Part shown: in pieces, positions 3,725 to 6,058 of the stretch
Layout: each line of letters opens with the position of its first letter
Numbering within the stretch: the stretch's first letter is position 1
Assembly: GCA_021821565.1 (NCBI GenBank)
Contig: JAKACI010000062.1
Coordinates: 1 to 7,950 of the forward strand
Direction: 5' to 3'
Origin: a bacterium
GTDB taxonomy: Bacteria > SZUA-79 > Acidulodesulfobacterales > Acidulodesulfobacteraceae
Length of the DNA stretch: 7,950 nucleotides
Position numbers and translations under genes: made by a program
Notes under the pieces: generated by a model
Told to the model about the DNA's origin: nothing
What the model saw: only the letters and a program-made list of their open reading frames with translations
The model's database searches: none

Positions 3725-3774
3725 TGGGGTGGATGACAGGGCTTGAACCTGCGACAACCGGAGTCACAATCCGA
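3725..3774 (-). pseudogene. 3' fragment of tRNA-His (GTG); probable attachment-site remnant
   Basis: Read on the minus strand, this stretch matches the 3' part of a bacterial tRNA-His. It has an anticodon arm (stem 3770-3774 with 3758-3762, one G-U pair; loop TTGTGAC with anticodon GTG at 3765-3767), a five-base variable loop TTGTC, a T arm (stem 3748-3752 with 3736-3740; loop TTCAAGC), the 3' acceptor strand CATCCAC (3729-3735), the C73 discriminator characteristic of tRNA-His, and an encoded CCA (3725-3727). The D arm and the 5' acceptor strand (GTGGATG expected) are missing: upstream of 3774 the sequence changes at once to unrelated AT-rich DNA. A lone 3' tRNA half is what integrases that target tRNA genes leave at the far end of an island. 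It cannot make a functional tRNA; an intact tRNA-His should exist elsewhere. Confidence 0.85.
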
Positions 3775-3781
3775 TAACTGT

Positions 3782-3787
3782 ATTATA
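3782..3787 (-). promoter_or_regulatory. Possible -10 box (TATAAT) upstream of the tRNA-His fragment and kinase gene
   Basis: A perfect TATAAT on the minus strand sits about 8 bp upstream of the tRNA-His fragment. No good TTGACA-like -35 is found at 16-18 bp. In DNA this AT-rich a chance hit is likely. If real, the kinase-operon transcript would begin near the fragment and carry it in its leader. Confidence 0.25.
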
Positions 3788-3895
3788 TAACTTATTAATT
3801 TAATTAACGATTTAGCTTTACAAAAAATGCTATGCGGTAAATTCTGTGCCAATGTCATCCTGTTTATTGTTATTGTTCCTCTTTTTTACATCCAA

Positions 3896-3921: not shown

Positions 3922-4064
3922 CCGCAATTTTATTATAATATTTTAATTATATATTATAATTCTATATTTTAAAACTATTTTTATTATATGCATATAATTT
4001 TAATTTCCATCAAATTTCCACAAAGCAAACTTAAAAACGTAAAAATAATTTTAAATATTTTATT

Positions 4065-4436
4065 TTAATGTTTGATTAAACAATTCACTATTCCAAATAT
4101 TTTAAGCATTTCGCTTATTGCAGTCACCATAAATGCACTTCCGAGAATTATATACATAATTGAATGTCTCATATTTTGTGCTAATTTTGCAAAATAATAA
4201 CCTAAAGGAAGCGTAATCATCCCAATAATTAAAGCTGCGACTATATCAACTCTTCCTGACGACAAATAAGCTCCCGCACCGCTTACAGCAGACATAAACA
4301 TTGCCAGCGTTGCTGTTCCTATCATTTTCTTTATGTTTATTGAAAAAAATATCATTATTATTGCTATAAATATAATTCCGCCGCCTACGCCTAAAATTCC
4401 CGTGAGAATGCCAACTATCATACTCATAAATAGCAC
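4065..4436 (-). CDS. TauE/SafE family permease, C-terminal half (second reading frame)
   Basis: A 123-residue hydrophobic protein equal to the second half of a TauE/SafE-type anion transporter, an inner-membrane family linked to movement of sulfite, sulfoacetate, taurine or related sulfur compounds. The half begins with the family's second signature, GILTGILGVGGG at residues 9-20, followed by three to four membrane helices and a short tail (NCLIKH). The annotated start is GTG at 4436; in-frame ATGs follow at 4427 and 4421, and none has a good ribosome site. The same frame is open further upstream, back to a TAA at 4473-4475, and encodes VPLNFFSFAI just before the GTG. That reads as a normal linker and the start of the first helix. 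The frame is offset by -1 from the N-terminal half at 4457-4849, and the two together make one ordinary-length permease. It is therefore better read as part of one gene than as an independent protein. Confidence 0.8.
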   Translation of the reverse strand: MLFMSMIVGILTGILGVGGGIIFIAIIMIFFSINIKKMIGTATLAMFMSAVSGAGAYLSSGRVDIVAALIIGMITLPLGYYFAKLAQNMRHSIMYIILGSAFMVTAISEMLKIFGIVNCLIKH

Positions 4437-4456
4437 AATTGCAAAGCTGAAAAAAT

Positions 4457-4849
4457 TTAGCGGAACTTTTTTTTATTTTCTAAATGATTTTTTATTTTAC
4501 TCCTTTTGAAAGAGACATAAGTCATATATAAAACAAATATAATGAATAATAGTTCAAGCATTTTTTCAGAGGTTATGAAAGCGATGCGTGCTCCGATTTG
4601 GGCGCCTATTATTGCTCCGGTGCCAAGAAGCAAAGATAGTTTTACATCCAGATTTTTATGCTTTAAATAGATTATCGTTACAGGGACGGTGGTAATTATA
4701 TCCACCAACAAACTTGATCCGACAGATTCTTTAAATGTCAAACCTAACAATGAAAGCGCAGGGACAACTATTAATACAGCGCTGGCACCGGTAATTCCCG
4801 TCAAGGCCCCAACAATTACGCCAATAATCAACAATAAAATTATAAACAT
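4457..4849 (-). CDS. TauE/SafE family permease, N-terminal half (frame ends early)
   Basis: A 130-residue membrane protein that matches the first half of a TauE/SafE transporter (usually about 250-265 residues). Residues 1-36 form the first helices with the signature GALTGITGAS at 14-23. Further helices follow at about 44-62, 71-91 and 96-114, then a basic cytoplasmic loop (KRSKIKNHLENKKKFR) and a stop at 4457-4459. The stop comes 6 nt after an A8-G run. The second half of the family continues in the -1 frame, so the gene is frameshifted, programmed to shift, or miscalled by one base. Start ATG at 4849; a GAGAGGA-like sequence is present upstream but too far away to serve it, so initiation looks weak. 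It lies 117 bp downstream of the DUF1641 gene, at the end of the sulfur module. A role in moving a sulfur anion fits the context, but the substrate is not shown by the sequence. Confidence 0.85.
   Translation of the reverse strand: MFIILLLIIGVIVGALTGITGASAVLIVVPALSLLGLTFKESVGSSLLVDIITTVPVTIIYLKHKNLDVKLSLLLGTGAIIGAQIGARIAFITSEKMLELLFIIFVLYMTYVSFKRSKIKNHLENKKKFR
4466..4474 (-). promoter_or_regulatory. A8-G slippery run: candidate -1 frameshift or slippage site in the TauE/SafE gene
   Basis: On the minus strand the zero-frame codons are AAT-AAA-AAA-AAG-TTC-CGC-TAA. The heptamer A-AAA-AAG, in the correct phase, is the same slippery sequence as in E. coli dnaX. A -1 slip gives AAG then GTT-CCG-CTA and runs straight into the C-terminal TauE/SafE frame. 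The joined product would be 261 residues (128 + 10 + 123), the normal family size. A Shine-Dalgarno-like AAAGGAG occurs in the coding sequence about 25 nt upstream, farther than the roughly 10 nt spacing in dnaX, and no strong downstream hairpin is obvious. RNA polymerase slippage, a simple mutation or an assembly indel in the homopolymer are equally open. Confidence 0.5.
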
Positions 4850-4882: not shown

Positions 4883-4983
4883 GCGTTAAACTAAATTTTT
4901 TCACCTGTTTTTAGAATTATTGCTACAATATAATATGCAGTTCCAACTTAAATAGCGTTAAACTAACTAAATAGCTTTAAACT
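4883..4983. repeat. Short direct repeats around the DUF1641-TauE/SafE gap
   Basis: The 12-mer GCGTTAAACTAA occurs perfectly at 4883-4894 and 4955-4966 (72-bp period). A third related copy overlaps the 3' end of the DUF1641 gene: ATAGCGTTAAACT at 4952-4964 and ATAGCTTTAAACT at 4971-4983 differ by one base with a 19-bp period. On the transcribed strand the core is AGTTTAA-C/A-GC. The copies could be a regulator or processing site, or a relic of a small insertion or duplication. No function is assigned. Confidence 0.55.
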
Positions 4984-6058
4984 CTTTTTCCGCTCCAGCG
5001 CTTGAAATAAAAATATCTTGAGCATGCTTTTTTATATCAATAGTCATGTTTTTAGATAATAGTATCATAAATTTAAGTCCGTGCATCACTTCAGGGTCTT
5101 TTGTAAGCGATAATAACGACAGAACGCCGCCTTTTTGATATTTTTCTTCTTTTGATTCATTAATTGTTTCCGTTGTTGAACGATTTATAGACTTAACAAA
5201 TTCTTTCACATTAATTTGAGTCATAAGAGCTTCTAACATTGCCTGAGCTGTATTCACAATCCTGTCAATAAGCCCGTCGGTGAACATTCTTCTTGCTCCT
5301 GCCGCTGCATTGGCAAGTTCGACTAAATCGTCTAATGTGCCGTTGTCAATAAATCCTTGACCCGTGTCTAAAAGCGGTCTTATATTATATTGTAGCATCA
5401 ACTCCGTAAGCTCCGCTAATTTCTCGGCAGTCCCTGCCATTCGTTCAATCATCGCATCCGTCGTTCCTTTGTTAAATCCTGCGACAAAATCGCCCATTTC
5501 CTTAAGAGTTTGAAGCGTGCCTGATCTTTCGAGCTCGTCAATCTTTTCAAGCGAAGATTCTATAGACTTTGATATTTGATGTGTTTTTTTAACAAGCCCC
5601 GTTATATTTTCATCGCTAAAGACATCCGCCAGCTCCGCCAATTTCTCGGCAGTCCCTGCCATACGTTCAATCATCGCATCCGTCGTTCCTTTGTTAAATC
5701 CTGCGACAAAATCACCCATTTCCTTAAGAGTTTGAAGCGTGCCGGATATTTCGAGTTCGTCAATCTTTTCAATGCCTTTTTTCATACTTTCAGATTTTTC
5801 GCCGACAGTTTTAATCATAGAAAGCTGCTCTTCACCGGAAAAACTATCCATAATGGAAAGACCTGCAGTAATATTATCAGCCACCCTTTGAACTATCGCA
5901 TCCGTTGCTCCTTCCTTCTGAGCTTGAAGCATCGCGCTAAATTCATCTAGAGTGTCCAACCTGTCAATAATATTTAATAAATGTTCAAGTGCTTGTGGCT
6001 TTTCCGTGAGTTTTTTTGTCAGGGCGGCAGCAATATCTATTTTTTCGTTTTCAGCCAT
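4967..6058 (-). CDS. DUF1641 family protein with internal repeats, partner gene of SQR
   Basis: A 363-residue, all-helical, soluble-looking protein without signal peptide or membrane segment. DUF1641 proteins often sit beside sulfide:quinone oxidoreductase (and some formate dehydrogenase) genes; their biochemical role is not established. The C-terminal hallmark GG-x-LSLL-x-LTKDPEV-x-x-GLKF is at 310-330. The protein repeats a module of about 70 residues with a G-x-TDA-hydrophobic-x-x-R core: residues 50-58, 124-132 and 198-206, and a divergent form (TDGLIDRIV) at 260-268. Modules two and three share about 48 residues (96-143 and 170-217) with one internal substitution (LEISG versus LERSG) beyond the boundary residue. 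Typical members are about half this length, so it has grown by duplication. ATG at 6058 follows a strong AGGAGGC five bases upstream, and SQR ends 37 bp before, so the two are almost surely co-transcribed. Confidence 0.85.
   Translation of the reverse strand: MAENEKIDIAAALTKKLTEKPQALEHLLNIIDRLDTLDEFSAMLQAQKEGATDAIVQRVADNITAGLSIMDSFSGEEQLSMIKTVGEKSESMKKGIEKIDELEISGTLQTLKEMGDFVAGFNKGTTDAMIERMAGTAEKLAELADVFSDENITGLVKKTHQISKSIESSLEKIDELERSGTLQTLKEMGDFVAGFNKGTTDAMIERMAGTAEKLAELTELMLQYNIRPLLDTGQGFIDNGTLDDLVELANAAAGARRMFTDGLIDRIVNTAQAMLEALMTQINVKEFVKSINRSTTETINESKEEKYQKGGVLSLLSLTKDPEVMHGLKFMILLSKNMTIDIKKHAQDIFISSAGAEKEFKAI
5409..5772 (-). repeat. Intragenic 142-bp direct duplication in the DUF1641 gene
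   Basis: Positions 5409-5550 and 5631-5772 are direct copies with a 222-bp (74-codon) offset. By eye they differ at six of 142 positions; only one change alters the protein (Ile versus Arg). The 80 bp between copies encodes a unique spacer (ADVFSDENITGLVKKTHQIS and onward). Near-identity at synonymous sites points to a recent duplication or continuing gene conversion. Confidence 0.9.

Follow-up and report, generated by a model that had tools for sequence, protein, structure and literature searches.

Frameshift Sites in Homopolymer Runs and the TauE/SafE Permeases

In the dnaX gene of E. coli, the slippery heptamer A_AAA_AAG is accompanied by a downstream structure and by an internal SD sequence about 10 nt upstream. 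Homopolymers in general are also the usual site of sequencing and assembly errors. The upstream SD of dnaX is described in PMC5600365, and according to PMC4066793, A_AAA_AAG with stimulators is among the most efficient heptamers of E. coli. For frameshift-prone motifs without stimulators, the same paper gives values that exceed the background of about 0.055% by factors of 2.1 to 10, that is to say, about half a per cent at most, a range which applies to the motifs collectively and not to A_AAA_AAG alone. As for the RNA polymerase, PMC1088944 suggests productive transcriptional slippage on eight A in IS elements of Deinococcus and Nostoc, and reports evident selection at runs of nine in a large share of genomes. 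In insect endosymbionts, 12–50% of transcripts are reported to be corrected at long poly(A) runs (PMC5009743), and a poly-A/T tract of 7 nt or more close to a frame transition serves as one mark of phase-variation clusters (PMC3711429). In a limited literature search, frameshifting in a TauE/SafE gene was not the subject of any paper listed, which is not a claim that none has been printed.

The gene reported here belongs to the same family as the TauE/SafE permeases (PF01925; TSUP, TC 2.A.102) of Sulfolobales and Thermoplasmata, with 45–59% identity in the best 95 of 234 matches, and differs from them in that its frame is broken in the linker, its contig is of bacterial type and its branch is a long one beside the Sulfolobales-type clade. 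With E. coli dnaX it shares the heptamer A_AAA_AAG and its phase; unlike dnaX, it has no stem-loop that could be found, its SD-like element is too far away, its break is not conserved, and its shifted product is a full-size family protein. The poly(A) frameshifts of endosymbionts, as described in PMC5009743, are similar in being AT-rich, with the break in an A run and both halves kept, whereas the run here is just eight and the host is presumably free-living. Another comparable case is P0124, a TauE protein of Acidiplasma type, in which the homologous lysine-rich A run is the site of the break and one lost base reproduces it; unlike the present gene, its DNA, as inferred from a near-identical gene, contains no in-phase A_AAA_AAG.

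The Permease Gene and Its Two Halves

The window, i.e., the whole stretch of DNA analysed, comprises 7,950 bases with 31.3% GC, and its main genes lie on the minus strand in the order DsrE-like fragment, TusA, SQR-like flavoprotein, a 363-residue protein which we take to be DUF1641-like, permease, sensor kinase, NtrC-like regulator and QueE. The features of the permease are as follows, the last one resting on folding against shuffles and the four before it being read directly from the sequence:

4849–4457, minus strand: N half of the TauE/SafE (TSUP) permease, 130 aa in the unshifted frame
4466–4065, minus strand: C half of this permease in the -1 frame, 133 aa counted from GTT
4475–4473, minus strand: TAA shutting the C frame upstream of the A run
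4474–4467, minus strand: A8 run, where the frames can join
4472–4466, minus strand: heptamer A_AAA_AAG, in phase
4459–4457, minus strand: TAA terminating the unshifted N half
4385–4466, minus strand: stretch 3′ of the A run, without unusual RNA structure

The N-terminal ORF ends in ...ENKKKFR*, and the C frame opens with VPLNFFSFAI... at 4466 and runs to its stop codon at 4067–4065, with the earliest start codon within it being GTG at 4436. Against the PF01925 TauE profile, the N half matches positions 1–113 with 84.4 bits and the C half positions 127–235 with 50.5 bits, so that both repeats lie in order above the curated cut-off of 32.6 bits. The match of both halves to one family is certainly beyond chance. 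A search of the two halves against NCBIfam and a profile search against solved structures gave no match at E 0.001. The gene is not one continuous reading frame, since the N half stops at TAA 4459–4457 and the C half continues in -1. The original prediction of a split TauE/SafE gene with an in-phase heptamer and a C half in the -1 frame is thus borne out by the coordinates and by PF01925, and so are the two product lengths that it gave: 130 residues for the unshifted half, and 128 + 133 = 261 residues for the shifted product, which is the size of the Sulfolobales and Thermoplasmata permeases.

The Join Site and the Information in the Heptamer

Because the C frame is shut by one TAA (4475–4473) and the N frame by the other (4459–4457), any shift is confined to the A8 run plus GTTCCGC, and only a -1 shift joins the halves. 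The position falls in the hydrophilic linker between the two repeats, each half being complete, and the A8 run is the longest homopolymer in the permease gene. In the window there are 15 coding A/T runs of at least 7, including an 8-run in the NtrC-like gene and a 9-run in queE; one of the 15, the A8, coincides with a break, although the other frames were not each compared with homologues, and the queE run lies so close to the start codon that it is no strict test of run-associated breaks. By the transcriptional-slippage criterion of about nine or more A/T, the permease run has eight.

In-phase X_XXY_YYZ heptamers are common in the genes of the window, at 45 per about 2,289 codons, of which 14 are A_AAA_AAN and two are A_AAA_AAG; the second A_AAA_AAG lies in the DUF1641-like gene, where the frame continues past it. 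Moreover, the loss of one base from a lysine-phase A run followed by G leaves an in-phase A_AAA_AAG by construction. The heptamer at the break is therefore not more than chance would give, and the best reading is that it is a by-product of the indel.

The stimulators known from dnaX were sought around it. The downstream RNA structure for which the original prediction proposed a folding test did not appear: the 82 nt of 4385–4466 are no more stable than shuffled sequence (z = +0.29, with 117 of 200 shuffles at least as stable, in a test that leaves pseudoknots outside), and there is no internal SD at the dnaX-like distance, the nearest SD-like GGAG ending 27 nt upstream of the heptamer. Of the label "dnaX-type" that the site had been given, the heptamer and its phase stand, while the downstream structure, the SD spacing and the conservation of the break do not, and programmed frameshifting at A8 is weakly supported.

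Relatives of the Permease and the Origin of the Gene

In the best 95 of 234 matches of the joined product, every named organism is an archaeon of Sulfolobales or Thermoplasmata; in the best 120, the closest match has 59% identity, and past the first 96, bacteria come in and the identity falls to about 30%. The 29 loci found on genome contigs all have archaeal titles, in a scan whose patterns were themselves derived from these relatives. The present protein joins 41 Sulfolobales-type sequences with a node support of 0.93 in an unrooted tree of 96 sequences, where its terminal branch (0.63) is the longest. The SQR-like protein points elsewhere: its eight best relatives share 82–89% identity and the next one 61% (best 120 of 4,965), and the sole named organism among the eight is Candidatus Acidulodesulfobacterium sp. 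H_13, at 82%. The GC content of the window also fits the range of 29.9–37.4% given for four Candidatus Acidulodesulfobacterales genomes in PMC6776010. As the close named relatives of the permease are archaeal and the SQR is most like that of Candidatus Acidulodesulfobacterium, it is likely, judging from these comparisons, that the permease was acquired horizontally between acidophiles. No match of the N half was found in plasmid and phage records, and among viral contigs 232 stretches fit a pattern and none of them encodes a relative; the repeats around the permease are short imperfect pairs at most, with nothing resembling insertion ends.

The linker is read through without a stop in 26 of the 29 archaeal loci (the match of L011 ends about 20 residues early), the three exceptions being L007, L028 and L029. 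Likewise, among the matches above 150 bits in two archaeal orders, which overlap with the 29 loci, 67 of 69 are stop-free (46 of 48 and 21 of 21), and the other two are found on the contigs that carry L007 and L028. Where it could be measured, in 17 loci, the longest A run of the linker is 2–7; two of these (L008 and L014) carry an in-phase A_AAA_AAN heptamer and are unbroken, which means that heptamer and break are not linked. Searching with the N half among proteins of half size returned itself and four fragments, and the identical 130-aa protein is listed on two contigs, the longer of 7,950 bases, from which the allele may be more than a one-off. In all, no conservation of the break was seen in the 29 archaeal loci or the best 120 of 234 matches, all at 59% identity or less. 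The original prediction had tied a sequencing error or a private mutation to relatives with an unbroken frame and no A run; the unbroken frame was found in 26 of 29, along with A runs of 2–7, and a private mutation is favoured, but since the relatives are distant this support is not conclusive.

Other Broken Copies

Over 126 residues, P0124 (127 aa) shares 99% identity with L014, the unbroken gene of Acidiplasma aeolicum, and its C-terminus, ...SYNMNKKE, falls in the same inter-repeat linker. When every single-base deletion and insertion over 36 linker positions of L014 was scanned, the sole match to this ending was a one-base deletion within AAAAAAGG, no insertion giving it, and this deletion leaves no A_AAA_AAG in phase. 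P0124 is known from protein alone, with its DNA inferred from L014, and its lysine-rich linker appears to have lost one base relative to the near-identical intact gene; its break may also be a sequencing error.

Two further copies are interrupted in the linker: L007 (Thermoplasma sp., 3998–4726) has an in-frame TAG there and its halves are otherwise in one frame, and L028, decayed at several places, shows a number of frame changes together with a stop in the linker region. Five others (P0123, P0125, P0126, L029 and G180, i.e., L043) are stopped or interrupted outside the linker, and some of these may be contig ends. Clustering of breaks in the linker is not claimed: a P of 0.04 for 2 of 4 was dropped since truncated copies had been left out. 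When all 8 copies that are broken or truncated are counted, the linker making up about 9%, the P for 2 in the linker is 0.15, and for 3, the decayed L028 included, it is 0.027, a post hoc calculation. In the archaeal L029 (4001–7960), some 3.5 kb separate the N piece from the C piece, both having the same orientation, as though something had been inserted.

Constraint and Age of the Break

At positions invariant among 15 relatives, the N half retains 30 of 30 and the C half 27 of 28. In simulated neutral decay, run with 27 positions, P was 0.095 for 0.05 substitutions per site and 0.026 for 0.07, and the 5% limit corresponds to about 0.06 substitutions per site since constraint ended. Such retention is unlikely under neutral decay, which argues that the gene was selected as a whole until recently or still is; since the invariant residues are kept in both halves, the break would be recent or leaky. 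If the gene is dead, the break would, on this comparison, be young. The retention fits a young mutation, a leaky but useful gene and an assembly slip alike, and does not separate them.

The 133 codons of the C half are free of stops. A random figure of 4e-5 for this open frame as a proof of coding was set aside as too generous: in the same stretch, just 2 of the 132 codons of another frame are stops and a reverse frame has 3, so that the open frame is modest evidence and the family match is the better proof. Decay of the C half was also considered. The present protein is 40–55% identical to the 15 relatives in the C half and 52–66% in the N half, and its branch is 0.63 in the C tree versus 0.39 in the N tree; however, the relatives lean the same way, with mean identities among themselves of 58% and 64%, respectively, and what is left is a mild acceleration at most.

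Explanations of the Break

The best explanation of the break is a private and recent indel of one base in the homopolymer, in a permease of archaeal type carried by a Candidatus Acidulodesulfobacterium-like bacterium; its probability is put at about 0.52. A bacterium related to Candidatus Acidulodesulfobacterium would bear a TauE/SafE permease of acidophilic-archaeal type beside SQR-like, TusA and DsrE-like sulfur genes; the A run that codes for lysine in the linker would recently have slipped by one base, shifting the C half to the -1 frame; and normal translation would then give the N half alone, with probable loss of function. It is possible that a low-level full-length product arises by ribosomal or RNA-polymerase slippage on A8, though nothing observed shows such slippage to be programmed. 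Against the private indel stand the 130-aa protein on two contigs, if these are independent, the retained C half, which is equally expected under continued slippage decoding, the position in the inter-repeat linker, which also suits a programmed or tolerated split, and a comparison that reached relatives at no more than 59% identity and not true siblings. An error of sequencing or assembly, with a different true run length and an intact gene, would account for the good preservation of both halves; the same 130-aa form on two contigs speaks against it, again if these are independent, as do the 14 other coding A/T runs of at least 7 without a coinciding break (not each compared with homologues), and it is considered unlikely. 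Functional slippage, by the ribosome at -1 on A_AAA_AAG or by the polymerase on A8, would yield a useful share of full-length product, either in a regulated two-product gene or as indel rescue of the kind seen in the poly(A) runs of insect endosymbionts. The tightly shut frames on either side of the A run and the conserved residues in both halves suit it, and so do the stimulated efficiency of A_AAA_AAG, the IS elements with eight A and the corrected endosymbiont transcripts in the sources cited above. On the other hand, heptamers are common in this AT-rich window, neither a downstream structure (pseudoknots aside) nor an SD at a dnaX-like distance was found, conservation of the break is not seen (across the linker, 26 of 29 archaeal loci are intact), and A8 falls short of the nine at which PMC1088944 finds selection evident in a large share of genomes; this explanation is improbable as well. 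That an archaeal-type permease is kept functional by A8 slippage, a private indel having become a tolerated or regulatory site giving half and whole permease, is quite doubtful.

If the A-tract length toggled the transporter on and off in the population, the A8 at the frame transition would be one of the marks named in PMC3711429, and the loss of a base in this linker also accounts for P0124; but eight A is judged short, the 8-run of the NtrC-like gene has no break, and no second allele of the permease is among the protein matches listed, making phase variation very unlikely. It is even harder to credit that the repeats are made as separate polypeptides assembling in the membrane. For this, the break lies between two repeats that are each complete, two other copies are cleanly broken in the linker (the TAG of L007, and P0124), and in L028, too, one of several disruptions is a stop in the linker region. 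Against it, five copies break elsewhere and the decay of L028 extends to several places, no SD of the C half lies within 25 nt of GTG 4436 or ATG 4427, and a start at either would probably trim its first helix. In the same window, good SDs precede the DUF1641-like, SQR and TusA genes, and the starts of the N half, queE, the NtrC-like gene and the kinase have no strong one.

Returning to the private indel, the case is mostly of cautionary value: where genomes are AT-rich, a one-base indel in a lysine run is expected to leave an in-phase A_AAA_AAG at the break, and unless conservation or stimulators accompany the heptamer, it argues only weakly for programmed frameshifting. In the Acidiplasma-type parallel, this linker seems to have lost a base with no slippery heptamer present. 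If slippage rescue were true, it would be a decoding-level repair outside endosymbionts.

Other Features of the Window

The longest run in the window is a nine-base homopolymer at 835–843, near the queE start. At gathering scores, the whole window has no Rfam match, and ARAGORN found no tRNA in it. About 290 bases past the permease end lies a sequence resembling the 3′ half of tRNA-His (about 3725–3775, in the region of 3736–3801 on the minus strand), with a GTG anticodon loop, T arm and acceptor end and without a proper D arm; it scores 19.3 bits with the Rfam tRNA model, below the gathering score of 29, and it could be a tRNA remnant or the attachment site of a mobile element. The 363-residue DUF1641-like protein (4967–6058), which has no match in Pfam or NCBIfam and is encoded between the SQR and the permease, contains two near-identical internal stretches of about 40 residues each.
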